Assembly: GCF_022014595.1 (NCBI RefSeq)
Contig: NZ_CP091740.1
Location: 1,662,200 to 1,726,199, forward strand
Reading direction: 5' to 3'
DNA from: Solitalea lacus
Lineage (GTDB): Bacteria > Bacteroidota > Bacteroidia > Sphingobacteriales > Sphingobacteriaceae
Length of the DNA stretch: 64,000 nt
The translations under genes were made by a program, and so were the position numbers. The notes under the pieces are model-generated. The model had not been told where the DNA came from. It made no database searches and saw nothing but the letters and a program-made list of their open reading frames with translations. Below, in pieces: positions 2,572 to 15,241 of the stretch (within the stretch, counting starts at the first letter, position 1; each line of letters opens with the position of its first letter).

Positions 2572-2680
2572 GTGAAAGAAGTAGGGTTTGCAAAACAAAA
2601 ATTAGCGAATATTACCTGTTTGCCATTCCGCAAAACGAATTGAGGAACAATCTTAATTTGAATAATTAATATAGTTTGTT

Positions 2681-2715
2681 AGGCCCCACAGTTTTATATT
2701 GTAGGGCCTTTTACT
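2681..2715 (+). terminator. Hairpin terminator after the metallophosphoesterase
   Basis: AGGCCC (2681-2686) pairs with GGGCCT (2704-2709), with a further ACA/TGT pairing inside. TTTTACTTTTC follows on the plus strand. It separates the plus-strand genes from the converging nos operon. Confidence 0.6.
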
Positions 2716-2737
2716 TTTCATCTTATATTGAAATTGT

Positions 2738-3505
2738 TTACAAATTTTTCTTCCTGAAAATTTTTACCGAAACTAATAGCGGAACTATAAACCACACCAA
2801 CATCGTGATGAATGAAATGACCATTCCTTGGTTGCTGCCCAATATGGATTTGTACAAGGCTCCTGTGTAACCCATTAATGCTGAAACATCCATTTTTAGC
2901 ATTACGATTATCCGTCCCAGATCAATAGGGTTTAGTGCAGTTAACATCAGAATGGTTTTCTCAAGCGGATAGTCGCTGAAACTATACATAATACCAAGCA
3001 GCAACCCATCATAAATAACGGAAAAGAAAAACCAGATTAATAGGGACAAGCCAATTCCTTTGGCCTTATCACGTGTTATTACCGAGCATAGAAACGCCAA
3101 TGACGCAAAGATTAAGGACAGCATGAAACCTGTGAAAAATAACATTAGGCCAAGCGAAGAAAAAGCGTATATGCCTATCGGGATGCCTAAACCTATCAGT
3201 AGGGCGGCTGACAAAGAACCTGCAATACCTATATATTCACCCAATAAAATTCGATTTCGTTTAATGGGTTGTGCAACCAGCAATTCAATAAACTCATATG
3301 AATTATAGAAATAGGTTGTTGTAAAAATCATGGACATCAATGGTATAATGATGTTGACAACGGTTAACAAACTGCTCACAGCTTTATCTGGGTTTTCTTC
3401 CAGGTAAAACATGCAGCAGGAGAGGATTAACAGGAATGCGGTATAACCTATAAGTACTTTGTTCCGGATAATATCGTGTAAAACATATTTAGTAACTTTC
3501 AGCAT
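2738..3505 (-). CDS. nosY: NosY, ABC transporter permease of the nos system
   Basis: Membrane permease that pairs with NosF and NosD in a complex supporting maturation of the CuZ centre of nitrous oxide reductase. The protein is about 255 residues with some six hydrophobic segments, typical of ABC-2-type permeases of this role. Assignment rests on position directly after nosF. The longer reading frame begins with TTG at 3514; I prefer the ATG at 3505 (MLKVTKYVLHDIIRNKV), which overlaps nosF by 17 bases, consistent with translational coupling. It is the last gene of the nos operon. Confidence 0.85.
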   Translation of the reverse strand: MLKVTKYVLHDIIRNKVLIGYTAFLLILSCCMFYLEENPDKAVSSLLTVVNIIIPLMSMIFTTTYFYNSYEFIELLVAQPIKRNRILLGEYIGIAGSLSAALLIGLGIPIGIYAFSSLGLMLFFTGFMLSLIFASLAFLCSVITRDKAKGIGLSLLIWFFFSVIYDGLLLGIMYSFSDYPLEKTILMLTALNPIDLGRIIVMLKMDVSALMGYTGALYKSILGSNQGMVISFITMLVWFIVPLLVSVKIFRKKNL

Positions 3506-4208
3506 AGCTATCAATTTTAAGGTAATTCATAATTGCTTTTCCGAGTTTGTATTCGCCGGTTATAGATTTCAAATCGTCAACTGAATAATCGAATTTAACA
3601 TGGCCTTCCATCAGGTAAAAAATTCGGTCTGACAGTTCATCCACTTCGCTCATAATGTGAGAAGAGATGAGAATAAGCTTGCCCTTTTTCTTTTCTTTTT
3701 GAATTTTGGCCTTTAAGATCTCGGCAGCAAAGGGATCGAGGCCGGCAGTGGGTTCGTCTAAAATTAATACCAAAGGATTAAACAGGCAGGCCAGTGCTGC
3801 ACTCACCTTTTGTCGTGTTCCGCCCGAGAGGGATCGCATCGGTTTATGAAACATTGAAGGCAGATCAAACTGGAATAACAATTCTTCGTCAACAGCCTTT
3901 TCGTTGCGTATATCTTTCATCATTTCAAATAGATGGCCTATTTTCATATTATCAGGATAACGACCAATTTGCGGCATGTAACCGATTTGCTTTTTGTAAT
4001 AGGGGTCGGAAGTGATGTTTTTTCCTTCAAACAAAATGGCTCCCGAGTCAGGAATCACCATTCCTAAAATTGATTTAATCAGCGTGGTTTTTCCTGATGC
4101 ATTGGGTCCTAATACAGAAATGATCTGTCCTGATTCAAAAGTTGTAGAGATGCCTTTCAGCACGTCCAGCTTACCGAAGGATTTTTTTAAGTGCTTAATT
4201 TCTATCAT
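3489..4208 (-). CDS. nosF: NosF, ABC transporter ATPase
   Basis: ATP-binding subunit of the NosDFY maturation transporter. Walker A is GPNASGKT (34-41), the ABC signature is LSGGTRQ, Walker B plus D-loop is LILDEPTAGLD, and the switch histidine sits in ILISSHIMSE. Length (239) is usual for the family. The start codon overlaps the nosD stop as ATGA (4205-4208) and the end overlaps nosY, so nosD-nosF-nosY is a tightly coupled set. Confidence 0.93.
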   Translation of the reverse strand: MIEIKHLKKSFGKLDVLKGISTTFESGQIISVLGPNASGKTTLIKSILGMVIPDSGAILFEGKNITSDPYYKKQIGYMPQIGRYPDNMKIGHLFEMMKDIRNEKAVDEELLFQFDLPSMFHKPMRSLSGGTRQKVSAALACLFNPLVLILDEPTAGLDPFAAEILKAKIQKEKKKGKLILISSHIMSEVDELSDRIFYLMEGHVKFDYSVDDLKSITGEYKLGKAIMNYLKIDSYAESY

Positions 4209-5443
4209 CGTGTTATAGATTGCATGAGTGGTTGTTCGTCTTTAATAGTTTCAGGAGTAATAGAAGGGATTGCTTTTTCGGCTTTATCTAAAAGATTGAC
4301 GATGAAACTTCGCATCAGCATTACCGAGTATGGCATTTTCTCCATTATTTGCGAGTAAAGACTCACCGGCCGGTAAGGCACATCGCCTGCTTTGTTTTTA
4401 TCCATGTCATATCCATCGTATTTATCCCAGTAATTTTTTTTGAAGGAATTTTGAAAATGCGTGCCGTTGGTGGCCAAATCGAAGGTGTTTGCGATAAAGT
4501 TGTTATTCTCAAAATGATCGTTCTCGCAATTGGCCAGCAGACGCACTGCCCAACCGTTTTGAGAAAAATCATTGCTTAAAATTTTGATACGGCTCGAGCC
4601 TTCCAGATAGATGCCTATTGTGTTGTTAATGAAACGATTGTTCTCAATTCGGCTGTCACTAATATCTTTCAGCAATAGTCCGTATGAGGAAGAACCACGA
4701 TTATTTTCGAACACATTGTTCAGCATCTTTATGCGTTTAGTGTACATTACTGCTACGCCCGAGCCGTTATTGGTAAATGTGTTGCCAATGTATGCATCAT
4801 CATCAGAAAACATAAAATGTAAACCGTAACGAATGTTTTGTTCGCTTCTGTTGTTTTTTATGAGGCTGTGTTTGGCAAATTCAAAGTAAATACCATCGCG
4901 ATGCCGGCTGATTTTGTTGTTTTCTATGTGAATGTATTTGCATTGCCATAGGTGTATGCCGTTTCCTGAGCGGGTAGGGTGGCCTGTACCGTTTAGGTCA
5001 TTGTTTTTTACGGTAACGTTCAATGCATCAGATAGATAAATTCCAAAAAATGTGTTTCGCAGCCGGTTGTTTACCAGCTTAATATTGCTAGCTTTAAATA
5101 CACGAATGCCTGCATAATCTTTTGCTGAACCACTGTTAGTGTTTTTTATCTCAAAACCGTTAACGGTAACGTTATTAGCTAAAATGGTCAGTATTTCATC
5201 TTTCCCCTGACCATCGAGCACAGGGTAATTTTGTCCGGTAAGTTTTATGCTTTTACTGATGATGATGTTCTTAGCTGGGTAAATTGATTTTTTAACCACA
5301 ATCTCGTCGCCATTTTGGGCGGTGGCCAACGCTGATTCAATACGTTTAAACTGCTCATTGGGGCCTACGAATAGCTTTTTTTGAGCAAAGGCCAGATGGT
5401 GACAACAAATGAGGGTTAATAAAAGTATAAGGTGTCTAATCAT
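4205..5443 (-). CDS. nosD: NosD, periplasmic copper-maturation protein
   Basis: Periplasmic right-handed beta-helix protein required to assemble the CuZ site of N2O reductase. The ATG at 5443 gives a signal peptide (MIRHLILLLTLICCHHLAFAQ); the longer frame starting with TTG would spoil it. The body is built of parallel-helix repeats rich in asparagine ladders (NNRLRN, ENNKISRH, NNRSEQN, ENNVFENN-like units), ending with KNYWDKYDGYD, a characteristic NosD stretch. The gene has its own promoter with a TATCTTTG -7 element and an inverted repeat upstream, and follows nosL after a strong hairpin. Confidence 0.93.
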   Translation of the reverse strand: MIRHLILLLTLICCHHLAFAQKKLFVGPNEQFKRIESALATAQNGDEIVVKKSIYPAKNIIISKSIKLTGQNYPVLDGQGKDEILTILANNVTVNGFEIKNTNSGSAKDYAGIRVFKASNIKLVNNRLRNTFFGIYLSDALNVTVKNNDLNGTGHPTRSGNGIHLWQCKYIHIENNKISRHRDGIYFEFAKHSLIKNNRSEQNIRYGLHFMFSDDDAYIGNTFTNNGSGVAVMYTKRIKMLNNVFENNRGSSSYGLLLKDISDSRIENNRFINNTIGIYLEGSSRIKILSNDFSQNGWAVRLLANCENDHFENNNFIANTFDLATNGTHFQNSFKKNYWDKYDGYDMDKNKAGDVPYRPVSLYSQIMEKMPYSVMLMRSFIVNLLDKAEKAIPSITPETIKDEQPLMQSITR

Positions 5444-5461
5444 GGTGTAATTCTTATAGAA

Positions 5462-5469
5462 CAAAGATA
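5462..5469 (-). promoter_or_regulatory. -7 promoter element of nosD
   Basis: The minus strand reads TATCTTTG, a perfect Bacteroidota TAnnTTTG element, 18 bases before the nosD ATG. No TTG is present at the usual -33 spacing; an inverted repeat occupies that position instead, which suggests an activator-dependent promoter. Confidence 0.6.
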
Positions 5470-5484
5470 AGTCTAAATAAATTA

Positions 5485-5501
5485 ATAAAAGACCTTTTTA
5501 T
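5485..5501. promoter_or_regulatory. Candidate operator upstream of nosD
   Basis: Inverted repeat ATAAAAG-AC-CTTTTTAT, centred about 27 bases upstream of the -7 element. An almost identical repeat lies upstream of ric (13121-13138). Candidate site for the Rrf2 regulator encoded in the locus or for a Crp/Fnr-type activator; the binder is inference. Confidence 0.45.
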
Positions 5502-5560
5502 CTTTTATTTTTTACTTTTCACCTCTATTATAATAAATCCGGCACATTTTAGTTTTTGAG

Positions 5561-5603
5561 TAACAAAGGAGGGTAATCATTATCCGACTACCCTCCTTTG
5601 TTA
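5561..5603 (-). terminator. Perfect 15-bp hairpin between nosL and nosD
   Basis: TAACAAAGGAGGGTA (5561-5575) pairs perfectly with TACCCTCCTTTGTTA (5589-5603) around a 13-base loop. It lies 20 bases after the nosL stop. It lacks a long U-tract, so it may be a 3' stabiliser or partial terminator that sets the nosD level apart from nosZ-nosL. Confidence 0.55.
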
Positions 5604-5622
5604 TGAACCGAAAATCAACTCT

Positions 5623-6051
5623 TTAATGTCCTCTCACTTTTTTTACCTGCTCCCAAGTTAAAGTTTCACCACTTAATTCCTGTTTCATTTTCATAGCATC
5701 CTTTTCAGAATTAAAAGCTGCAAGATTGCCTCCCATCGGACTTTTTATATTTTCTCCGTAAAGAAAAACGGCTTCTTGGGCATTAATCAATATGCCGGGT
5801 TGCGAATGGTTGGTGACAAAAAACTGTTCTTGCTGCTCTCCTCCGGTGTGTAGATAGTCGATCATGCATTCTGCCGAGTCAAACTTGAATACCTTGCCGT
5901 TTTTATTTACAATTTCTGCCCCAAACTTATCGTCCATTATATTCATTTTGCACATGTCACAGGCATCGGTTCCATACTGAATAGGAACAGCACCTTTTTT
6001 ATTGCAGGCCAACATTACTATGGCCAATAGTATTAACATTTGATTTTTCAT
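5623..6051 (-). CDS. nosL: NosL, copper-binding lipoprotein
   Basis: Outer-envelope copper chaperone that delivers Cu(I) to the NosDFY/NosZ pathway. The ATG at 6051 gives MKNQMLILLAIVMLAC, a lipoprotein signal with the lipidated cysteine at residue 16. The metal-binding motif CDMCKMNIMDD, diagnostic of NosL, follows shortly after. The domain is complete (about 142 residues). Its 5' end overlaps the upstream membrane-protein gene by about 53 bases in another frame, implying cotranslation. Confidence 0.93.
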   Translation of the reverse strand: MKNQMLILLAIVMLACNKKGAVPIQYGTDACDMCKMNIMDDKFGAEIVNKNGKVFKFDSAECMIDYLHTGGEQQEQFFVTNHSQPGILINAQEAVFLYGENIKSPMGGNLAAFNSEKDAMKMKQELSGETLTWEQVKKVRGH

Positions 6052-6622
6052 GTTTATTATTTTTCTTAGTCCGTAACTCAATTATCGAAATTCCTATAAC
6101 GGTACTAATTGCCCCTATTACCATCCAACCGCCAAGTGCAGGGAACGAACCTGCCAAAAAATTAAGCAGTTGTTTGTAGCCAAACAGTGGAGGCTGGTAC
6201 GACATGCCAGGAACTTTTATGGCCGCCATCGGATCGAGGTCGTGGCCGTAATCGTATTCCCACAGATAAAAATCAACTGCACCGACCACCCCGAAAATGA
6301 TTAATAGTACAGCCCAGGTGTAAAGCAGTTTTTGATTGTTGCGCCAATAGGTAAGCAAACCAAAAGCTGCTAACAGGCCAACAGCATAGGGGAGTAGTTT
6401 TAGTTCAATAAAATCTTCAGCATGAATGTGTTTCATGCCGATGTAATGGTTCAGTCCGTTAATTTTAGCTACATCACCGGTAATGTTGTTTATTAAGATA
6501 TTCATTTCCAACCCCTCAGGATATTGAGGGGCTTCTAATGAAATTTTCCAGATAGGGAAGAAGTAAGCACCGAGCATTAACACTGCACTAACAATTACAA
6601 GTATTCGGGAAGACTTTTTCAT
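5999..6622 (-). CDS. Multi-pass membrane protein of the nos operon
   Basis: Conserved-looking membrane protein between nosZ and nosL. About five hydrophobic segments are visible (SRILVIVSAVLMLGAYFF, LLPYAVGLLAAFGLL, LYTWAVLLIIFGVVGAV, LNFLAGSFPALGG, VIGAISTVIGISII). A long loop between segments carries several histidines (GLNHYIGMKHIHAEDF), and DYGHDLDPMAAIKVPGMSYQPP precedes the fourth segment. The His/Met content would suit copper handling or quinol/heme interaction, but that is inference. ATG 6622 is chosen; ATG 6676 would add 18 residues. No function is known to me. The 3' end overlaps nosL. Confidence 0.75.
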   Translation of the reverse strand: MKKSSRILVIVSAVLMLGAYFFPIWKISLEAPQYPEGLEMNILINNITGDVAKINGLNHYIGMKHIHAEDFIELKLLPYAVGLLAAFGLLTYWRNNQKLLYTWAVLLIIFGVVGAVDFYLWEYDYGHDLDPMAAIKVPGMSYQPPLFGYKQLLNFLAGSFPALGGWMVIGAISTVIGISIIELRTKKNNKHEKSNVNTIGHSNVGLQ

Positions 6623-6778
6623 CTGTTTGCGTTTTAAAAGGCTGTCTAAGTGCTGTGAATTAATTTTGATCAACATATTGAATAGTTAATCATATCTCCT
6701 GGACTAACATTTTATTGTCAGAGTAGGGGCCTAAAGTATTGTAATTACTTTGACAGCTGTATTATGATGTATAAGGAA

Positions 6779-6828
6779 ATAACCGAAACCTGGCAGTGCG
6801 TTGCTGCCCTGCACTTGGTTTCGGTTAT
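6779..6828 (-). terminator. 12-bp hairpin downstream of nosZ
   Basis: ATAACCGAAACC (6779-6790) pairs with GGTTTCGGTTAT (6817-6828). The 26-base interior (GTGC, GGCAG and GCAC elements) can fold further. Located 24 bases after the nosZ stop with a weak U-tract; likely an intra-operon processing or partial termination point. Confidence 0.5.
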
Positions 6829-6852
6829 AAATTAATTTTTCAGTTCTCGTTT

Positions 6853-8847
6853 TTAATTTTTAGCAAGTTCGTTTTTAGGAGCTGTTTCACCGATTCCGGA
6901 TTTTAAAGCAACGGTTGAATTAGCTGGAGAAACGCGAGCATATCCTTGCATTTCCTGATGCAGGGCCGAGCAGAAGTCAGTACAATAGAATGGAAATATC
7001 CCAGTTGATTTAGGTGTCCATTTTATGGTTTGAGTTTCTCCCGGCATAATTAGTAACTCAGCGTTTTCGGCGCCTTTTACTGCAAAACCATGCGGTACGT
7101 CCCAATCTTGTTCTAAGTTAGTTATGTGGAAATATACTTCATCGCCCAATTTTATACCTTCAATATTATCAGGTGCAAGGTGTGAGCGAATGGCAGTCAT
7201 CCATACATCCACCCGTTTACCGTTACGAACTATTTTGGTTTCTTTTTCATTCTTAACAGCATAAGGGTGTTCATTTTTGCTTAGTTCGAAAATCTTTTTC
7301 TGATTCTTCAAGATTACATCGGCAGGGCAGGCTTGGGCATAGTGAGGCTCTCCAATGGTAGGGAAGTCTAACAAGAGATTCATCTTCTCTCCCGTAATAT
7401 CAAACAACTGCGCCGATTGAGTTAACTCAGGTCCTGTAGGCAGGTAGCGATCTTTAGTAATTTTATTCAGTGCAATTGCATATTTACCATATGGTTTTTT
7501 GTTATCGCCCCCTACTACACATAAGTGGCCGATTGAGTAATAGGTAGGAATACGGTCAACTACTTCGCGGGTATCCACTTTCCATTTTACAATTTCTGAT
7601 GATACGAACATTGAAGTATAAGCATAACCTTTGTCATCAAATTCGGTATGCAGAGGGCCTAAACCAGGTTTTTGTACCTCACCGGCTAAAGCGGCTTCAT
7701 ATTTAATAACTGGTACTTTGTCAAACTCGCTTTCGAACGTTTTTTTGGCAATGGCATCAGTCATCTTTTTAAATGAAAACACCGGAATAACGGCTGCCAA
7801 TTTACCGCTGGCAACTATGCTTTCTCCATCCGGACTTACATCGGCACCGTGTGGCGACTTAGGACAAGGGATAAAGTAAACAATGTCCTTTAGTACCCGT
7901 GTATCGAGTGTTAACACCTCTTTTTCAACTTTAGAACTTGCTGAATGTGTTCGCTCATCGTAATTGTTGTGATAATAGGTGGTTGGTGTTTTTTTGCCTT
8001 TTCCCTGTTTCAAATACTCTTCTGCTTTTTTCCAGTTTACGGCCATAATAAAGTCCTTGTCGCGCTGACTGGCATTTACTTCCAACAAAGTGTTGGCCTG
8101 TTCAGAGTTATAGCAAGTGAAGAACATCCAGCCATGTGAAGCTCCTTTGCCACTTCGGGCCAAGTCATAGTTTACGCCCGGAACCAAAAGCTGGAAGGCA
8201 ATATTCATGTGACCTTCTTTCGGGTCTACTTTTACGAAAGAAAGGGCCCCGCGGAAGTTTTCTTTATACGTATTGATAGGAACATCAGTGTTGCCTTCAA
8301 TTGGAACACTAAACCGAGTACCAGCCACTACGTATTCGGTGTTTTCGGTACAGTAAGGCGAAGAGTGGTTACCGCCAGAATTGGGAATCTCAAGAATTTC
8401 CTCGGTTTTAAATGTTGCGAGGTTAATGCGTGCTATACGGGGTGTATTATTTCCGTTGATAAACAACCAACGCCCGTCGTCAGAACCATCGGTTTTGGAA
8501 ATCTGAGGGTGGTGGGCATCATCCCAAGGAATAAAGCCGTGTGAGGTATTAAGCATGGCCTTGGTTTCTTCAGAATAACCCCATCCGTTTTCAGGGTTTT
8601 GCGAAAATACCGGAATCACTTTAAGTAGTCGGCCCGAAGGTAAGCCATATGCGGCAACCTGGCCACTAAAGCCGCCTGAAGCGAACAGATACACCTCGTC
8701 TAATTTGCCGGGAGCAACGTACACTTTCTGTGCAGCATCACCCGAAATCACTGTTTCTGCTTTTTTAGGTTTACAAGCGGTAGTGAAGGTTACAGCAGCC
8801 ACTGCTGTGGCCAACACCAGTTTTGAATATGGAGTTGATAAACTCAT
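6853..8847 (-). CDS. nosZ: NosZ, nitrous oxide reductase (clade II)
   Basis: Terminal reductase of denitrification: N2O + 2H+ + 2e- gives N2 + water, in the periplasm. The N terminus has no twin-arginine; it is a Sec signal with a lipobox-like FTTAC (Cys25), as in clade II (atypical) NosZ. CuZ ligands begin with DDAHHPQ (His112/113) and GGNHSSPY. The C-terminal cupredoxin domain carries the CuA motif CTDFCSALHQEM (Cys622, Cys626, His630, Met633) preceded by DVPHGFAV. Length 664 is normal. No nosR is present, as usual for clade II. The lipoprotein cytochrome c directly upstream is a plausible electron donor. Confidence 0.96.
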   Translation of the reverse strand: MSLSTPYSKLVLATAVAAVTFTTACKPKKAETVISGDAAQKVYVAPGKLDEVYLFASGGFSGQVAAYGLPSGRLLKVIPVFSQNPENGWGYSEETKAMLNTSHGFIPWDDAHHPQISKTDGSDDGRWLFINGNNTPRIARINLATFKTEEILEIPNSGGNHSSPYCTENTEYVVAGTRFSVPIEGNTDVPINTYKENFRGALSFVKVDPKEGHMNIAFQLLVPGVNYDLARSGKGASHGWMFFTCYNSEQANTLLEVNASQRDKDFIMAVNWKKAEEYLKQGKGKKTPTTYYHNNYDERTHSASSKVEKEVLTLDTRVLKDIVYFIPCPKSPHGADVSPDGESIVASGKLAAVIPVFSFKKMTDAIAKKTFESEFDKVPVIKYEAALAGEVQKPGLGPLHTEFDDKGYAYTSMFVSSEIVKWKVDTREVVDRIPTYYSIGHLCVVGGDNKKPYGKYAIALNKITKDRYLPTGPELTQSAQLFDITGEKMNLLLDFPTIGEPHYAQACPADVILKNQKKIFELSKNEHPYAVKNEKETKIVRNGKRVDVWMTAIRSHLAPDNIEGIKLGDEVYFHITNLEQDWDVPHGFAVKGAENAELLIMPGETQTIKWTPKSTGIFPFYCTDFCSALHQEMQGYARVSPANSTVALKSGIGETAPKNELAKN

Positions 8848-8867
8848 TGTATTTTTGGTTTTATTAA

Positions 8868-8886
8868 GAAAATAAGATCTTTTAAT
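8868..8886. promoter_or_regulatory. Palindrome between the cytochrome c gene and nosZ
   Basis: AAGATCTT (8874-8881) flanked by AT-rich arms (AAAATAAG-AT-CTTTTAAT). It resembles the repeats upstream of nosD and ric in its AAG-NN-CTTTT core, but is less symmetric. No TAnnTTTG element is seen between it and nosZ. Confidence 0.3.
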
Positions 8887-8908
8887 CTTGTTTTAGTGTA
8901 AAATTAAT

Positions 8909-9439
8909 TTACAGGTCATTTTTACGTAAGAACTCCAAAATTTGTCTGGTTTCATCGTCAGATACGTTTTGGAAGGTCATTTGGGTAAGGTGTTCTGCCA
9001 GTAGTGCTTTGGCCACCGGGTCTTTTTGGGTCATTTCAGCTGGGTTGGTGATCATGTTCATAATCCACTCAGGTGTACGTCGTTTGGTGACACCTTTTAA
9101 GCCAGGGCCAACAACTTTAGTCTCATCCACTCTATGACAGGCTGAACATTTCGAATCGAAAACGGTTTTTCCTTTAGTGGCGTGGTCGGCGTTAAGTCCA
9201 TCAACTTTTACATCGGTAAATTTTCCTATACCTTTGCTGTCGCTGTGCACTTTTGTGTCTATTGTGGCGGTGGCTTCAGTTTGCTGACTTTCATCAGATG
9301 AAGCCATTGTTTCTGATGTTTCGGAAGTTTGTGAAGAATTGCCCCCGCATGAGGTTAAAAATAAAGATACGATAGTAATTGCTAAAAAGGGAAATAAGGA
9401 TCTTTTTATCCTTTTTTTAAATAAAACATTGGTTTTCAT
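8909..9439 (-). CDS. Lipoprotein cytochrome c
   Basis: Monoheme c-type cytochrome anchored by lipid. The signal peptide ends in a lipobox FLTSC (Cys31). A serine/threonine/glutamate-rich linker (about 34-65) follows, then one heme site CSACH (98-102), with VVGPGLKGV after it and candidate axial methionines near residues 136 and 154. Placed immediately before nosZ, it probably passes electrons from the respiratory chain to the CuA site of NosZ; the pairing is inferred from position. Spacing to nosZ is 61 bases. Confidence 0.88.
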   Translation of the reverse strand: MKTNVLFKKRIKRSLFPFLAITIVSLFLTSCGGNSSQTSETSETMASSDESQQTEATATIDTKVHSDSKGIGKFTDVKVDGLNADHATKGKTVFDSKCSACHRVDETKVVGPGLKGVTKRRTPEWIMNMITNPAEMTQKDPVAKALLAEHLTQMTFQNVSDDETRQILEFLRKNDL

Positions 9440-9462
9440 AATATATAATTTTAAAAGTATTA

Positions 9463-9906
9463 TTATTTAGTTTCTAAAACGATGTTTAATACCTTTCCTT
9501 TAGCCACATCGGCAGCTAAATCCTGAATGGTTTTGGTAGTGAAAAGGGTTATTAATGAAAGCTTGATAAGCTTGTAATTGTCATGTAGCGGGCAGGGTTG
9601 CAGATCGTTGCATTCCTTTAACCCAAGCACACAGGTTCCAAGCGGTTTGGAGCCGTCAATGGCTTTTATTACATTGATGATGGGTATCGGATTGCTGTCT
9701 TTTTCAATATAAAAACCACCGTTAGGGCCCTTGGTAGAAGAAATTATCCCTTGCCGCGAAAGTGTTTGCAGTATTTTGGCTGTAAAATGCTCAGGCGAAC
9801 CAATTTCTTTGGCAATATCCTTTATTCCCAGCTTATTGCCGTTTCCACTCTTATAAACAATATAAACAAGAGCTCTGATTGCATATTCACAGGTTTTCGA
9901 AAGCAT
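9463..9906 (-). CDS. Rrf2-family transcriptional regulator
   Basis: Winged-helix Rrf2 regulator of 147 residues. The family start MLSKTCEYAIRALVYIV is followed by the recognition helix region (KDIAKEIGSPEHFTAKILQTLSRQG) and the wing (GPNGGF). Three cysteines, Cys92, Cys99 and Cys105 (C-X6-C-X5-C), lie where NsrR/IscR-type members bind an Fe-S cluster, so the protein may sense NO, redox or Fe-S status. It is the only DNA-binding protein in the locus and the likely candidate for the inverted repeats before nosD and ric. Relation to NsrR specifically cannot be settled by eye. Confidence 0.9.
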   Translation of the reverse strand: MLSKTCEYAIRALVYIVYKSGNGNKLGIKDIAKEIGSPEHFTAKILQTLSRQGIISSTKGPNGGFYIEKDSNPIPIINVIKAIDGSKPLGTCVLGLKECNDLQPCPLHDNYKLIKLSLITLFTTKTIQDLAADVAKGKVLNIVLETK

Positions 9907-9911
9907 ATTCG

Positions 9912-10244
9912 TTAATTTAATCCAAGTTGAGTTTTACCTTCTTCACTAATGTTATCTACCGTCCATTCTGGTTCCCATACAAGTTGCACCTCAACCTGCC
10001 AATCCGGATGCCGTTGTTTCAGTCGTTCCCAGATACAGTTTATGATGAATTCACCGGCGGGACAGCCTTTGGTTGAGAGTGTCATGGTGACATTGATTTC
10101 TTTCGAATGTTCCCATACCTCAATGTTATAAACTAAACCAAGGTCAACAATGTTTATACCCAGTTCCGGGTCGATAACACTGCGTAAATTTTCATATAAT
10201 TCTGCGATAAAAAAAGGTTTATTTTTCAGAATATCGATTTCCAT
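9912..10244 (-). CDS. MIP18/DUF59-family Fe-S assembly protein
   Basis: Small protein of the MIP18 (DUF59, SufT/PaaD-like) family, which helps assemble or deliver Fe-S clusters. Diagnostic features: LRSVIDPELGINIVDLGLVY near the N terminus and TLSTKGCPAGEFI with the conserved cysteine, then VQLVWEPEWT. ATG 10244 is preferred over a TTG at 10256. It ends 5 bases before the Rrf2 gene and sits downstream of the membrane protein gene, so all are one transcript. Presence beside RIC and Rrf2 fits repair of Fe-S centres damaged by NO or N2O-respiration stress. Confidence 0.88.
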   Translation of the reverse strand: MEIDILKNKPFFIAELYENLRSVIDPELGINIVDLGLVYNIEVWEHSKEINVTMTLSTKGCPAGEFIINCIWERLKQRHPDWQVEVQLVWEPEWTVDNISEEGKTQLGLN

Positions 10245-10252
10245 GACATTAT

Positions 10253-11518
10253 TCAATTAACGTTCATTCTGATGAGTTTAATTATGTTGGTGGTATAGAA
10301 AATTGCACTGATAAGCATTAACAATGCTCCAAATGTAATTACCACTGTGCTTTTTATTGCGATGCCTGCTATTACCAGGACTAATCCCGGTATATAAAAT
10401 ATAAACTGCAAGCTGAGCCATTTTTTATTGTACATATCTGCTGGTTGAGGAATACTGTCGGCACCTGCCATTTCTTTAAATTTTTCGAGCCAAACGATGT
10501 AAGGTAAAATTTTAAATGTTTGGGCTAAAATCAAGCCCGTGAGAAATCCACCTAAAAACAGTACACCATACGTTTTGGCCAATTGCAGTACAATTTCGTT
10601 GTTATTCAAAAACAATAATATAGCAGCGATGATAACTGAAGCAAGACCGACAGGCAACGATTTGTAAGTTGCATTCATAGGCAAGTCAACTTTACGCTTC
10701 ATCCTGTATTTCCAAACAGAGTGAAGAAATTTGGCGTAGCAGCCTATGCCAGCGGCGGCCAACAGCCAGCAAACTATGTTTAACCGTCCCTGATTGAAAC
10801 ACATATCGATAAGAAAGCCACAAATAGCTGCATTTACCAAATACCAGCTCAGCTTTAGTTGTTTATTATTGGTTGTTTTGCTGAGTAAAAACATGGGCAT
10901 CAATTTTGAAAGCACACCCATAACCAGTAGTAAAAACCACCCTGCAAAGCCTAAATGTGCATGCAACTTGAGGTAGTGCAAATGGTCCTCGGGTAAAAAG
11001 GCGTAGCTTAAATTGAAAACCAGTAGTGTTCCTAAAGTTGCAGTTGCCAGCAGCCAGAGTAAGGCCGTTTGAATAAAATCAGCATGAATATTTTCCGTTT
11101 TATGTTTCGTTGTAGTTCTCCAAAGATTAAAACAATATGAGCTAATACTTGATAACAGCACCAATGCTGCAACCTGCATTAAAGGGCCTGTTTTGAAGTG
11201 GTAAAACGAACATGCCAGACCGCTTACGCCTGCTATCAGGCTGAAAAAGCTGAAATGGGCTAATTTGTTGCTGTACAAATCAACATCGAGAATAACCGGA
11301 ACCAAAAGGTAGGTTGTACCTATGATGATCATGCTGATCCATCCTAAAGCAGCTAAATGTACCATGGCAAGCAATTGAGGATGGAAAAAATGTCCGGCAA
11401 ATGCATTGCCGGACATTAACATCAGCACACACACTATCAAATAAGCGATGCTTCCGGCCATATAATGCGCAGAAATCATTTTGGCAGAAACAGTTTTAAT
11501 TGATATAGCGTGGCTCAT
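10253..11518 (-). CDS. His-rich polytopic membrane protein, heme-copper oxidase I/NnrS-like
   Basis: A 421-residue protein with about twelve hydrophobic segments. Conserved-looking histidines sit at membrane edges: HFFHPQLLAMVHLAALGW, FSFFSLIAG with AHF before it, and LHYLKLHAHLGFAGWFLLLVMG. The HAHxxFxGW pattern recurs in the neighbouring 401-residue protein. The arrangement recalls the heme-binding helices of oxidase subunit I-like or NnrS-like proteins. The canonical oxidase metal set and partner subunits are not obvious, so I do not call it an oxidase. Context suggests a role in NO/N2O metabolism or resistance. Confidence 0.65.
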   Translation of the reverse strand: MSHAISIKTVSAKMISAHYMAGSIAYLIVCVLMLMSGNAFAGHFFHPQLLAMVHLAALGWISMIIIGTTYLLVPVILDVDLYSNKLAHFSFFSLIAGVSGLACSFYHFKTGPLMQVAALVLLSSISSYCFNLWRTTTKHKTENIHADFIQTALLWLLATATLGTLLVFNLSYAFLPEDHLHYLKLHAHLGFAGWFLLLVMGVLSKLMPMFLLSKTTNNKQLKLSWYLVNAAICGFLIDMCFNQGRLNIVCWLLAAAGIGCYAKFLHSVWKYRMKRKVDLPMNATYKSLPVGLASVIIAAILLFLNNNEIVLQLAKTYGVLFLGGFLTGLILAQTFKILPYIVWLEKFKEMAGADSIPQPADMYNKKWLSLQFIFYIPGLVLVIAGIAIKSTVVITFGALLMLISAIFYTTNIIKLIRMNVN

Positions 11519-11534
11519 GGTTGTAAAATTAAAT

Positions 11535-12065
11535 TTATCTGAAGATGAGAATCTCTACCTTTTCTTTGTTATAAATCAGGTATTCAAAATTGCGTGCCTT
11601 TAATTCGGGAAGCAGAAAAAGTGGTATTTTTTTATGGTGAACCAGTAGGGCATGCTCCTCTGGTAAATGCTCAAGCGCTTCCAAAATAGTAAGCATGGGC
11701 TGCGGCATTTCCAGTTCTCTTACATCAACTTCATGCAGTTTGCCCTTAAAGGTATTCAGCAGGCTTACAAATGTTTCATCGTTATAGTTGAAATTGCATT
11801 CCGGTTCTTTTGCCAGGTTTTTCACTGATAACGGATCGGGTTCAAAGTAGGAATGTATCTCGTTATTACTTTTACGCTCTGTCCGGTAAACAAAACCTTT
11901 TGACTGCATCACTGTGTAAAGTGGAACAGGTTCAAACGGAGTAATCAAGAGTAGGCCCCAGCTAGATTGGAGTGTGTTTACCATCTCCATAATTTGCTTA
12001 AATGGGTCCTGCTTTTGCGCGAGAAGGGGCCTTACATCCAGCAGTACCATATTTTCTGTTTCCAT
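11535..12065 (-). CDS. Tandem DUF2249 protein
   Basis: Cytoplasmic protein of about 176 residues with two DUF2249-like units: one starting MVLLDVRPLLAQKQDPF and one starting HEVDVRELEMPQPM, each followed by a short L/P-rich core (LLITPFEPVPLY, LLVHHKKIPLFL). DUF2249 occurs fused to hemerythrin and RIC-type proteins; its exact activity is not established. ATG 12065 leaves 5 bases after the ric stop; ATG 12089 would overlap it. It probably works with RIC. Confidence 0.8.
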   Translation of the reverse strand: METENMVLLDVRPLLAQKQDPFKQIMEMVNTLQSSWGLLLITPFEPVPLYTVMQSKGFVYRTERKSNNEIHSYFEPDPLSVKNLAKEPECNFNYNDETFVSLLNTFKGKLHEVDVRELEMPQPMLTILEALEHLPEEHALLVHHKKIPLFLLPELKARNFEYLIYNKEKVEILIFR

Positions 12066-12070
12066 GGTTA

Positions 12071-13069
12071 CTAAGGTTTTACTGAACATGAATTTTCAGC
12101 CGATTCAAGCGGCTCATCTTTACCCATCAGCTCTGTTTCAAGTTCAATAGCTTTGGGGAACAAAATATTGTTCTCTAAATGAATATGATTGTGTAAATCG
12201 TTTTCAAACTCTTGTAGCTTGGCATACAGTACCCTGTAGGTGGTACATGCATCGGCAGGGGGAGTATAATTATTAGATAGTTTGCTAATGGCTTGCATCA
12301 GCTCTCCAGCCGAATCATGCTCCATTTCCATCATATTCACAGGGTTTTTCACTGTTCCGAAAGTTGGAGTACCCGCAGATTTGTTTTCTCTTTTTAGTTT
12401 ACCAAGTTGTTGAATATAAGGGAAAAGTACCCGCTCTTCTTTCATCAGGTGCATGTTGAGTTCGGCTGCTAGCGCATGAACTTTTTCAGCGATTTCAATG
12501 TTTTCAGGATGATTATCACCATGAACCCGCGCTACCTTTTGTGCAAACTCAAGCATTATCGGCAACGATTCTTTTACATAGGTGTGATGTTTATTTACAA
12601 TATAATCAACTAAAAACTCTACTGACCATTGATCATAGTTTTCAGCTTTTGTATCTAGGTTTGCTGTAGCATTCAGTGCAGTTTCCAATTCGTCATAGTT
12701 TACGCCTTTTTCAGCACATACCTGCTTTACCGACTTTTTACCACCACAGCAAAAGTCAATTCCGAATTTTTTAAATACTTCAGCCTTGCGGAAATCTTTT
12801 GCCACTAATTCTCCTACAGTTCTGTCATTTTCACCAACTGCATTTTTACTTATTCGAACTTTCCACCATTCAGGACCTTCCAATAAATATTCCCAGCTGA
12901 ATATAGCCCCTCGTTCGGCTAATAACTGATAATAAAGTGGCTTTGGATCATGATCATTATGAATAATAAAGCCTTCTCCTGGTTGTAATTTATCAAATAG
13001 GTTAAAAATTGTGGGGTGCTTTTGTTTAGGTTCCAGAACGGTTACGTCCAATATTTCCATGTTGTTCAT
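12071..13069 (-). CDS. ric: RIC di-iron Fe-S repair protein with N-terminal DUF2249 domain
   Basis: Repair of iron centres (YtfE/ScdA) protein that restores Fe-S clusters damaged by NO or oxidants. Three parts: a DUF2249 domain (about 4-75), an ScdA_N domain with the cysteine pair DFCCGG (Cys107/108), and a hemerythrin-like four-helix di-iron domain (about 150-315) with KHHTY, HGDNHPE, MHLMKEERVLFP, MEMEHD and HNHIHLENNILFP motifs. Standard RIC lacks the first domain, so this is a fusion form. It has its own promoter region with an inverted repeat matching that of nosD. Confidence 0.92.
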   Translation of the reverse strand: MNNMEILDVTVLEPKQKHPTIFNLFDKLQPGEGFIIHNDHDPKPLYYQLLAERGAIFSWEYLLEGPEWWKVRISKNAVGENDRTVGELVAKDFRKAEVFKKFGIDFCCGGKKSVKQVCAEKGVNYDELETALNATANLDTKAENYDQWSVEFLVDYIVNKHHTYVKESLPIMLEFAQKVARVHGDNHPENIEIAEKVHALAAELNMHLMKEERVLFPYIQQLGKLKRENKSAGTPTFGTVKNPVNMMEMEHDSAGELMQAISKLSNNYTPPADACTTYRVLYAKLQEFENDLHNHIHLENNILFPKAIELETELMGKDEPLESAENSCSVKP

Positions 13070-13091
13070 ATTTTATCTTCGTTTTATGAAT

Positions 13092-13099
13092 CAAAGATA
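13092..13099 (-). promoter_or_regulatory. -7 promoter element of ric
   Basis: The minus strand reads TATCTTTG, matching TAnnTTTG, 22 bases before the ric ATG. The AT-rich region upstream holds the inverted repeats at 13097-13138 in place of a -33 TTG. Confidence 0.6.
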
Positions 13100-13120
13100 A
13101 AAAGATATTTTAAATAAAAG

Positions 13121-13138
13121 ATAAAAAGGTCTTTTTAT
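13121..13138. promoter_or_regulatory. Candidate operator upstream of ric
   Basis: Perfect 8+2+8 inverted repeat ATAAAAAG-GT-CTTTTTAT. A second ATAAAAAG half-site with a weaker partner lies 24 bases nearer the gene (13097-13113). The same repeat, in opposite orientation and one base shorter, precedes nosD. Confidence 0.5.
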
Positions 13139-13141
13139 TTT

Positions 13142-14347
13142 TTATTCTTTTTTTGAGAACAACCAAAGACCAAAAAGGACAGGAGGTAAGCCCGCTGTGG
13201 CAAGTGTTAAAACATTCTGAAAATGAGGAATAGAAGCTTTATTAATCATAAATAAGCTTTCACCGAAAAGCAATAGTTCAGTAGTAACAATGCCTGCAAT
13301 AAACAAGTAAGCTGAAATAGAAAGTTGTTTGGAAATGGTAAGTAGCCCTGTATGAATACTGTAAAACAAAACGAAACAACTAAAGCATCCCAAAAATACC
13401 ATGTGCAGATAACCGATAATCAGATGACGTATTTGATATACAAGGTTGGCAGAATAGGGAAGTGCCGAGAGTAGTTGCATGCCGGCTTTTAACCCAAAAG
13501 CCAATACACTTAAAAATAACAGCGTTTTTTGAAGTCGTGGTAAGGAAAGCAATGTCCTCCAATTTAATTTTTTGAACAGGAGTAATAAAGCAAGGCATTG
13601 CAGAATGGCTCCAACTCCTCCAAGAAAATAAAACACTGTTGGCGGTTTGTTCCACAGAAGCGAAAGGGAGTAGGTTAGCAAAACCGAAATGAGCAAAAGG
13701 GAGTAAATAAGTTTTGAATTGATTAGGGAAGAAGTAAAGCCTTGTTTTTCGCTTAGATTTATTAGTAACGATAAAATACCCAGGCATAACCAGCCATTGT
13801 ATTGAAAATGTAGATAAAAATAAATGGTATTATAATAAACTGGCGTACCCGATAAGCCGGTTGCTATAATGGGTCCTAAGGCAAACGGCCCTAAGCATGA
13901 TAATCCTAAAAAGATTAGCGCCAAGCGAGCTGTTTTAAGTGAAAGCACTTTGTGGCTATAATGTGTTGCTTTGAAAAACAATACAATAAACCAGATATTC
14001 ACCCCAATAAATAACGTTGAGAATGCTATGGAAACTACGAAATAACCTTTAAATGGAAAGGAAAGCAACATTCCATACGCGGTAAAAGCAGTAAGACGAA
14101 TGAGGTTTTTAAAACTCCTTTTTTCGAATAATTCGGATGGAAGGAAGCTGTGGCTAAGTATCAATACTAAAGCCATAAATGCCCAACCACTAAAGGCAAA
14201 ATGGCTGTGAGCATGTAAAATATATTGATAGTTCAACCCATTAATCGGGTTAATCATGAGCCATCGCAACAACAATCCAACTATTGAAAGAATAAAGAAG
14301 TTGAAAAGTGCTAAACGGAAATACTTTTTAAGATTGAGCAATGGCAT
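13142..14347 (-). CDS. His-rich polytopic membrane protein, heme-copper-like
   Basis: A 401-residue protein with about eleven to twelve hydrophobic segments and no signal peptide. Histidine clusters occur at ILHAHSHFAFSGWAFMAL (about 43-60), FYLHFQYNGWL and IRHLIIGYLHMVFLG, resembling the helix pattern of oxidase subunit I-like or NnrS-like proteins and of the 421-residue neighbour. No known function. It ends 72 bases before ric and is preceded by a TPR protein gene, 10 bases away, so it belongs to the upper part of the locus. Confidence 0.6.
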   Translation of the reverse strand: MPLLNLKKYFRLALFNFFILSIVGLLLRWLMINPINGLNYQYILHAHSHFAFSGWAFMALVLILSHSFLPSELFEKRSFKNLIRLTAFTAYGMLLSFPFKGYFVVSIAFSTLFIGVNIWFIVLFFKATHYSHKVLSLKTARLALIFLGLSCLGPFALGPIIATGLSGTPVYYNTIYFYLHFQYNGWLCLGILSLLINLSEKQGFTSSLINSKLIYSLLLISVLLTYSLSLLWNKPPTVFYFLGGVGAILQCLALLLLFKKLNWRTLLSLPRLQKTLLFLSVLAFGLKAGMQLLSALPYSANLVYQIRHLIIGYLHMVFLGCFSCFVLFYSIHTGLLTISKQLSISAYLFIAGIVTTELLLFGESLFMINKASIPHFQNVLTLATAGLPPVLFGLWLFSKKE

Positions 14348-14357
14348 TTTTTAGCAG

Positions 14358-15101
14358 TTATTTTTTCTCTTCTTTATAGAACATCAATGGAATAGAATAA
14401 TAACGTGCACAAACCGGTTTTCCATCATATTGTGCTGGTTTTACCTTACCCAATTGTCCGGAAACGGTCATAAGATCAATAATTAGTTTTCGATCTGCAA
14501 AGTTTTCATCTGCAGGAATAACAGTAATACTACCATCTTTTCCAAACAACAATCCGGCTGTCAATTTCACTTGAGAAATTTCAGCAACCTGAATATTTTT
14601 ATTAGCCGCTTCCACCTCAAAAATGCGTTTTTTTATTTCAGCGGATTGTATCACTTTTTCACCAATAGTCTTTAATAATTTGGTGTTAATGTTATTGTTG
14701 AAAAACAAATCTTCAGGTTTATCCCCAATCAAAAGCACAGGAAATTGGTCAACATCAGCAACATCCATAGTGTCAGCATAATTTAAACGAACGTTTAATT
14801 GCTTTTTCAAAATTTCTTTTGATTGGCTGTCTCCTAAAGCTGCTGAACGCTGAAAAAGGTCTATTGCTTTCTGTTTGTTTCCTGCTTCGTATTGTAAAGC
14901 CGCCAGGTTAAATAGGGCATCAATGTGTTTAGGATTTATTTGCAGAACTTCTTCAAATCCCTTAATGGCCTTTTCAGCTTCTTTATTATCATAATGTTTT
15001 AAAGCAATTTGATAAAGACTGTCCGCTTTTGAAATGGTTTGGGCTAGCATAGCGCAAGTAGAAACTATAACCATTGCTATGGTAAGGACTAATTTTTTCA
15101 T
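14358..15101 (-). CDS. Exported TPR protein with TonB-C-like tail
   Basis: Periplasmic protein of 247 residues: signal peptide (cleavage near CAMLAQ), two or three tetratricopeptide repeats (about 25-95, with ALKHYDNKEAEKAIKGFEEVL and ALFNLAALQYEAGNKQKAI), a linker, then a C-terminal region (about 170-240) containing AGLLFGKDGSITVIP and GKVKPAQYDGKPVCARYYSIPLMF, which resembles a TonB C-terminal fold. Likely a protein-interaction or envelope factor. It opens the run of minus-strand genes leading to ric. Confidence 0.65.
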   Translation of the reverse strand: MKKLVLTIAMVIVSTCAMLAQTISKADSLYQIALKHYDNKEAEKAIKGFEEVLQINPKHIDALFNLAALQYEAGNKQKAIDLFQRSAALGDSQSKEILKKQLNVRLNYADTMDVADVDQFPVLLIGDKPEDLFFNNNINTKLLKTIGEKVIQSAEIKKRIFEVEAANKNIQVAEISQVKLTAGLLFGKDGSITVIPADENFADRKLIIDLMTVSGQLGKVKPAQYDGKPVCARYYSIPLMFYKEEKK

Positions 15102-15241
15102 AAGCGACTAATTTAATGCATTTCGAAATTATATTATTCGAAAACATTTTCTTAATTCGGTCCTATGTTTTTTAGGACTTGTTAGGAAGAAGTTTTTTAG
15201 TAATAGCTACTTTCCAGTAAGTTCCTGTTGCGGCCAATTAA

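Follow-up and report, generated by a model that had tools for sequence, protein, structure and literature searches.

The window analyzed here is a 64,000-nucleotide stretch of the Solitalea lacus genome (contig NZ_CP091740.1, positions 1,662,200 to 1,726,199), the genome being a single contig of 4.40 Mb, and it holds a nitrous oxide (N2O) reductase locus in which a regulator of the Rrf2 family is encoded in one string of genes with ric, for an iron-sulfur (Fe-S) repair protein, and nosZ. Upstream of this string, and upstream of the separate nosDFY genes, lie two copies of an inverted repeat that we interpret as a 26-bp operator of the Rrf2 protein. The features of the locus, in window coordinates, are the following.

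2738 to 3514, minus strand: nosY permease (PF12679, 50 bits), adjoining nosF
3489 to 4208, minus strand: nosF ABC ATPase (matched by ABC ATPase models, none shown over its cut-off), adjoining nosD in the 40 nos loci fetched
4205 to 5464, minus strand: nosD, likely start ATG at 5443 (TIGR04247, 426 bits, cut-off 300)
5462 to 5469, minus strand: -7 element TATCTTTG of the nosD promoter, 14 bp downstream of operator 1
5484 to 5509: operator 1, upstream of nosDFY, minus-strand reading AATAAAAGA-TAAAAAGG-TCTTTTATT, exact match
6853 to 8847, minus strand: nosZ, Sec-dependent (clade II) N2O reductase (TIGR04246, 934 bits, cut-off 625)
8869 to 8894: weak site resembling the operator, in the gap between cytc and nosZ, 4 mismatches
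8909 to 9439, minus strand: c-type cytochrome of the nos locus, cytc (PF00034, 46 bits)
9463 to 9906, minus strand: Rrf2-family regulator (PF02082, 89.3 bits), with operators 1 and 2 and that of norB as its predicted binding sites
9912 to 10256, minus strand: MIP18/FeS_assembly_P protein (PF01883, 46.5 bits)
10253 to 11518, minus strand: COX1/NnrS-like membrane protein (PF00115, 27.1 bits, under the curated cut-off of 34.8)
11535 to 12089, minus strand: DUF2249 protein (Pfam PF10006, 84.7 bits, two stretches)
12071 to 13069, minus strand: ric, Fe-S repair di-iron protein with DUF2249, ScdA_N and hemerythrin domains by Pfam (TIGR03652, 261 bits, cut-off 204.7)
13092 to 13099, minus strand: -7 element TATCTTTG of the ric promoter, 13 bp downstream of operator 2
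13113 to 13138: operator 2, upstream of the ric...nosZ string, minus-strand reading ATAAAAAGA-CCTTTTTA-TCTTTTATT, two mismatches

From 13069 to 6853 on the minus strand, ric, duf2249, the cox1-like gene, mip18, rrf2, cytc and nosZ follow one another head to tail, with neighbors that overlap or are separated by gaps of at most 61 bp, and because of this spacing, the only ground for the predicted operon, control by the ric operator probably extends to nosZ and rrf2. On the 3' side of nosZ there is a stem-loop (6775-6832, -24.7 kcal/mol), then a membrane protein and nosL, and a further stem-loop (5560-5604, -29.5 kcal/mol) lies between nosL and nosDFY.

A first-pass annotation of this DNA had described nearly identical inverted repeats at 13121-13138 upstream of ric (ATAAAAAGGTCTTTTTAT) and at 5485-5501 upstream of nosD (ATAAAAGACCTTTTTAT), each followed by a perfect -7 element (13099-13092 and 5469-5462, minus strand) in a promoter that lacks the -33 TTG, and these features are present as described, with no TTG in the stretch upstream where the -33 element is expected. 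The boundaries of its 18-bp motif have to be redrawn. The element conserved among relatives is the 26-bp operator AATAAAAGA-N8-TCTTTTATT, in which the arms are kept and the middle varies, and the earlier repeat comprises the spacer TAAAAAGG plus one arm of it. On the 26-bp reading the operator stands at a regular distance from the -7 box (nosD 14 bp, ric 13 bp, norB 11 bp), compared with about 14 (nosD) and 21 (ric) from the 18-bp repeat. As to randomness, which the annotation had named as a test, the 26-bp form is not random, whereas the 18-bp version alone is random genome-wide: within the window it has 16 matches at up to 3 mismatches versus 4.8 in shuffles, with 0 of 100 shuffles reaching 16 (both strands are covered, so that each palindrome counts twice), and across the genome it has 197 matches versus 196 for the reversed control, and it was replaced as a genome-wide signal by the 26-bp form. 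At up to 3 mismatches the 26-bp form is itself noise in the window genome (26 versus 33 for the reversed control), and at up to 1 mismatch the reversed control has no match there; the weight of the evidence within this genome rests on the two exact copies, their genes, and conservation in relatives. A sigma-70 and terminator consensus scan of 2600-15200 gave no excess over shuffles (32 versus 35.7 and 11 versus 11.6, respectively). The spacer TAAAAAGG is seen again in distant genera and before other targets (ric in L101; hmp in L114, L116, and L117; Empedobacter L244 and L245), where it creates an inner 18-bp palindrome and raises the question of a second bound dimer.

The motif is also found at orthologous promoters, where the annotation had proposed beforehand to look for it. 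Operator 1 is kept in three congeners (L050/L202, L051/L206, and L052/L201) and lies 14 bp before a TAnnTTTG box in all four genomes, and the ric operator is exact in two of the congeners (L051/L203 and L052/L204) and has one mismatch in the third (L050/L208). The weak site between cytc and nosZ has counterparts in the same place with 4, 4, and 3 mismatches in L050, L051, and L052. The window genome contains a third site, about 65 bp upstream of norB, which encodes a 773-residue nitric oxide (NO) reductase (NorB_cytochrome_c-like, 243 bits; COX1, 205 bits); apart from the nosD operator it is the sole exact copy in this genome, in which the operator targets are ric, norB, and nosD, not nirK. 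In congeners G041 and G262 (L205 and L199) the same operator is followed by an rrf2 paralogue, about 40% identical, and then by norB. The window genome has kept the operator and norB without the paralogue; its sole Rrf2 match at E<=1e-15 is the protein of the nos locus, so that this protein presumably controls norB in trans.

Among 300 genomes of the order, 62 others carry nosZ, and 12-20 kb around nosZ was fetched from 39 of these, a mostly best-scoring and non-random choice, which together with the second nosZ of the window genome gave 40 nos loci. When spacers of 0-16 were scanned in these loci at up to 1 mismatch, 24 sites were found at spacer 8, two at spacer 15, and none at any other length. 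The operator occurs in 11 of the 12 loci with rrf2 and in 1 of the 28 without it, and that single locus (L084) belongs to a genome, G292, with an rrf2 gene elsewhere. In the survey of all 300 genomes (site at up to 1 mismatch, Rrf2 orthologue at E<=1e-15, reversed pattern as control), 173 sites were found in 113 genomes, the reversed pattern occurring in 21. Site and rrf2 occur together in 100 genomes, the site only in 13, rrf2 only in 22, and neither in 165 (rrf2 in 122 altogether), giving a Fisher value of 1.8e-42 and an odds ratio of 58 in tests that ignore relatedness, which inflates these figures; for the reversed pattern the odds ratio with rrf2 is 1.1.

Inspection covered 72 distinct sites of the 173, namely those that had been listed or whose loci had been fetched, a target being a gene with the site within 400 bp upstream. 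A known target lies downstream of 51 of the 67 inspected sites in rrf2-positive genomes and of 0 of the 5 in rrf2-negative genomes. The targets are rrf2 (25), hmp (17), ric (12), duf2249 (4), nirK (2), cytc (1), and norB (1), with divergent pairs counted twice, and over the order as a whole inspected sites precede rrf2, hmp, ric, norB, nirK, cytc-nosZ, and nosD. In 24 of the listed cases the site is 34-98 bp upstream of the rrf2 match, and a divergent hmp-operator-rrf2 layout recurs (L172, L176-L178, L180, and L187-L191). The order thus has sites upstream of hmp, ric/dnrN, norB, and nirK, as is characteristic of an NsrR-type regulon; no Hmp over the model cut-off was found in the window genome or the three congeners. 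Sites with 0-1 mismatch in L109, L108, L122, L168, L166, and L183 may be further targets or chance, and the genes downstream of them include a DGC-domain protein, an Alginate_exp porin, a short open reading frame (ORF) without a Pfam match that looks hemerythrin-like by eye, and others.

The Rrf2 protein of the window is recognized by superfamily models (PF02082, cut-off 30; TIGR00738, 86.6 bits, cut-off 73.3), the latter matching all 49 members of our alignment, the window protein included, at E<=0.001. Its AlphaFold2 model (mean predicted local distance difference test score 90.6) has the winged-helix Rrf2 fold, and Foldseek gives 33 rows at E<=0.001, all of them chains of RsrR, CymR, IscR, and NsrR except two titled only putative regulators. 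VIA-align Z scores are 15.2 for CymR, 13.6 for IscR, 13.4 for NsrR 7b0c, 12.9 for RsrR, and 12.2 for NsrR 5n07; rows from Z 11.9 down include Z-alpha and other winged-helix domains matched over 60-70 residues, which we did not take as relatives. The cysteine set reported at first pass is in place as C92-X6-C99-X5-C105, and all three cysteines are invariant in the 49 aligned sequences; E7 is not invariant, being Lys in some. In a profile alignment to Streptomyces coelicolor NsrR (5n07) the cysteines fall on C93, C99, and C105, the first gap being one residue longer in the window protein, and E7 falls on D8, and Asp8 is a cluster ligand in NsrR (PMC9338935). The window protein, as aligned, keeps three cysteines and a carboxylate in register with the NsrR cluster ligands.

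NsrR, the NO-sensing repressor of E. coli, Neisseria, and S. coelicolor, whose [4Fe-4S] cluster reacts with NO at the cost of its DNA affinity, is one comparator, similar to the window protein in fold and in the register of the three cysteines and the helix-1 carboxylate, but with C-X5-C-X5-C and Asp in place of C-X6-C-X5-C and Glu. Its regulon shares hmp, ric/dnrN, norB, and nirK with the one described here (PMC1274295), and its autoregulation (PMC4861436) resembles the sites at rrf2 promoters. It differs in its operator, gATGyAT-N5-ATrCATc (PMC1274295), set against AATAAAAGA-N8-TCTTTTATT by comparison of consensus, the NsrR motif not being scanned, and in that nosZ and nosDFY are in the present regulon; the passages of PMC1274295 used here note nos genes under NsrR only for P. 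profundum, and they give the NsrR regulon as reconstructed in Proteobacteria, Bacillus, and Streptomyces, and Bacteroides only under HcpR. A second comparator is RsrR, the [2Fe-2S] redox sensor of Streptomyces venezuelae, which is the best profile match among solved structures (53 bits) and shares the Rrf2 fold and the helix-1 Glu, though its cysteine region aligns with gaps. In RsrR this Glu is a cluster ligand, and the targets are redox rather than NO genes. IscR, whose targets are Fe-S assembly genes, also has the Rrf2 fold, and its model TIGR02010 gives 47 bits against a cut-off of 207.6.

The wing of the Rrf2 protein varies together with the operator arms. In 111 distinct Rrf2 proteins, with 150 bp upstream scored for each, 66 had a scorable operator: the wing KGPxGG goes with AATAAAAGA arms in 44 of 44 and the wing KGRxGG with TAATT[A/C]AGA arms in 16 of 16, five KGVGGG proteins have AATAAAAGA-like arms, and one further protein was unparsed. 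Across 45 named rrf2 loci the AATAAAAGA form was present at up to 2 mismatches in 8 (16 sites versus 1 for the reversed pattern), and the remaining 37 led to the TAATT[A/C]AGA variant. Operator type tracks Rrf2 clade and not host, with both types held in Weeksellaceae (Empedobacter, Pro and AATAAAAGA; Kaistella/Chryseobacterium, Arg and TAATTAAGA) and in Chitinophagaceae (L248 against L252, L261, and L274). The profile alignment places window Pro61 with IscR Pro61, which in the GPxGG wing of IscR is seen in the minor groove, and with NsrR Arg62, a proposed minor-groove contact (PMC9338935), and the two arm types differ at the operator ends, which is where the wings contact DNA. The KGNGGG-wing proteins of Flavobacterium and relatives (L255, L265, L269, L272, L277, L279, and L281) have none of the operator forms upstream; their loci show a recurrent ATGATTTAAATCAT-like palindrome, and a third dialect may exist.

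The placement of the operator bears on how it acts. In 85 site-target pairs a TAnnTTTG box occurs within 37 bp downstream in 52 (shuffled mean 2.7, maximum 10), and in 44 of the 52 the distance is 7-16 bp, so that the operator covers the -33 region. In 20 of the 85 the box exactly fills the operator spacer, and in 11 of these (ric 8, cytc 2, nirK 1) the next 30 bp downstream hold no second box; over 20 ric promoters the box is in the spacer in 8, none with a further box within 30 bp downstream, downstream of the operator in 6, and in neither position in 6. An operator that either overlaps the -33 region or encloses the -7 box suggests repression, which is favored because the arms close round a sole -7 box.

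Taken together, we propose, at a probability of about 0.83, an NsrR-like, NO-derepressed Rrf2 regulon with its own 26-bp operator that governs ric...nosZ, nosDFY, and norB. Both repeats would be copies of one operator, to which the Rrf2 protein of the ric-nosZ string would bind as a dimer. This dimer would carry an Fe-S cluster on C92, C99, C105, and probably E7 and, sitting over the -33/-7 region, would keep RNA polymerase off. Nitric oxide would attack the cluster and the protein would release DNA, upon which ric-duf2249-cox1L-mip18-rrf2-cytc-nosZ, nosDFY, and the distant norB would be expressed together, providing NO reduction, N2O reduction, and Fe-S repair jointly, with autoregulation. 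What has been computed is the operator with its conservation, targets, promoter position, and link to the Rrf2 clade; physical binding, the cluster type, NO as the signal, repression, and the operon structure are what we infer from this. The first-pass proposal of one regulon for N2O reduction and Fe-S repair under the Rrf2 protein of the locus is thus supported by comparative evidence, and would be wider than first drawn. No description of this operator or regulon was found in the open-licence full text searched.

The same Rrf2 protein might instead bind the operator as an activator at about -40, or sense Fe-S or iron status rather than NO, in the manner of IscR or RirA. An activator would also suit nosD, ric, and norB, where 24-27 bp separate the operator centre, near -40, from the -7 box and no -33 TTG is present; the RirA and IscR models outscore the NsrR model (57.3 and 47 versus 39.9 bits), and a MIP18-type Fe-S assembly gene is within the ric...nosZ string. 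At 8 of the 20 ric promoters, however, the sole -7-like box near the operator is inside it, which is hard to reconcile with activation, and hmp, norB, nirK, and ric are NO genes, with no suf or isc operon recognized among the inspected sites, where no search aimed at suf/isc was made. We consider this alternative unlikely.

A considerably less likely alternative is that the palindrome is the site of another regulator, for example one of the Crp/Fnr type such as HcpR or DNR, which simply occurs alongside rrf2. HcpR is the Bacteroidota regulator predicted for hcp in Bacteroides, and for dnrN too in B. fragilis, and Pseudomonas denitrification genes are under DNR (PMC1274295). HcpR is a Crp/Fnr protein, unlike Rrf2, and where a Crp/Fnr box would be TTGAy-N4-rTCAA-like the operator has GA-N8-TC, unlike both the cyanobacterial HcpR box TTGACnnnnGTCAA and the DNR box CTTGATnnnnATCAAG (PMC1274295), the Bacteroides HcpR box not being compared; moreover, the site stands on the promoter of rrf2 itself in the 24 listed cases, tracks Rrf2 clade rather than host family, and varies with the Rrf2 wing residue. 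We regard it as hardly credible that the repeats act as transcription terminators or RNA hairpins or arose by chance in AT-rich DNA: they can form RNA hairpins, if weak ones (-9.9 and -6.8 kcal/mol; z -3.5 and -2.1), the ric site comes directly after the stop of the upstream gene, and the 18-bp pattern is not enriched genome-wide, but the stem is nearly without G-C, far stronger stem-loops occur elsewhere in the locus (those 3' of nosZ and between nosL and nosDFY), and spacer-8 specificity, promoter position, and target identity would be left unexplained.

Several observations weigh against the NO-derepressed Rrf2 regulon, in addition to the inflated Fisher figures and to the fit of an activator at the three window-genome promoters. 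At the level of the protein, the NsrR equivalog NF008240 (NCBIfam) gives 39.9 bits against a cut-off of 182, and because this model is not matched the window Rrf2 is not filed as NsrR, although it is predicted to work like it. The count at up to 2 mismatches in the window genome, three sites (nosD, ric, and norB) versus two for the reversed control, is not significant alone, and in the 40 nos loci the same tolerance gives 24 sites at spacer 8, 11 at spacer 11, 5 at spacer 15, and 4 at spacer 12, the spacer-11 matches probably coming from AATAATAAAAGA-type arms read with a shift of three bases. No site is found at up to 1 mismatch in 22 of the 122 rrf2-positive genomes, and 45 of the 111 Rrf2 proteins are without a scorable operator, including that of the window, whose gene is inside the string. 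A recognized target is missing for 16 of the 67 inspected sites in rrf2-positive genomes; three of these (G007, G101, and G175) are cytc sites cut off there and visible in L061, L060, and L057, the one in G292 overlaps a predicted cytc start, and one in G041 (L198) is just upstream of a ric match inside an over-long ORF. The Arg-wing group is a single clade (100/100), amounting to about one switch event. With regard to promoter geometry, a second box follows downstream for 9 of the 20 spacer-filling boxes (hmp, rrf2, and norB), in 6 cases, each of them an rrf2 promoter, the spacer is filled by the box in reverse orientation, and the spacer is itself T/A-biased. In the phylum scan of 395 genomes at up to 1 mismatch the site is in 47, with 42 outside the order versus 34 for the reversed control; this raw excess is slight, and outside the order only rrf2-adjacent sites are claimed (L213, L214, L221-L224, L232, L239, and L240). 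Lastly, near the window genome's own nirK (L291) and second nos locus (L049) there is no site with fewer than 4 mismatches, and the expectation of a site at every NO gene was dropped.

These two loci have features of their own. The Cu-nitrite reductase was sought with TIGR02376 after PF00394, which also misses the NirK of L110, gave no match, and this identified one nirK in the window genome, one in G262, and none in G041 and G169. In L291, TCGGACAGTTTTGTCCGA stands some 35 bp ahead of the probable nirK start and just before a TACTTTTA box; it has the GA-N8-TC core with other arms and is perhaps the site of another Rrf2 paralogue. L049 (C1:493500-513400) is a second clade II nos locus with cytc, nosL, and nosDFY, in which NosZ is 68% identical and no ric or rrf2 match is present, and the two N2O reductases of the window genome are apparently under different control. 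Two membrane proteins of the window recur in nos/ric loci, one at 13142-14347 with no Pfam or NCBIfam match at E<=0.001 and one at 5999-6676 with only a sub-threshold Pfam match to DUF4131.

Rrf2 regulators are known to be enriched beside clade II nos clusters and scaffolds, their role being described as difficult to predict (PMC6264515), and Rrf2 has been suggested to govern nos in Melioribacter (PMC3534657). For the phylum we think it likely, somewhat less firmly than for the regulon itself, that Bacteroidota have their own NsrR-like branch of Rrf2, marked by C-X6-C-X5-C and by a 26-bp operator in which the -7 element of the phylum can serve as the 8-bp spacer, that a clade II N2O reductase is under NO derepression, and that the regulator and its operator have moved as a pair, wing and arm changing in concert (from Pro and AATAAAAGA to Arg and TAATT[A/C]AGA) and two operator dialects coexisting within the single families Weeksellaceae and Chitinophagaceae. 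It would also exemplify a -7 box of Bacteroidota framed by repressor arms.

The clade II nosZ of Bacteroidota can consume N2O, and its control is poorly known; the operator, the regulator, and the target list make this question directly testable. The regulon predicts that NO, and not N2O, switches on N2O reduction, along with NO reductase and Fe-S repair, and the operator may help to predict, from genomes and metagenomes, how N2O respiration is controlled. In this phylum one predicted NO-sensing switch thus appears to tie N2O breakdown to NO defence.

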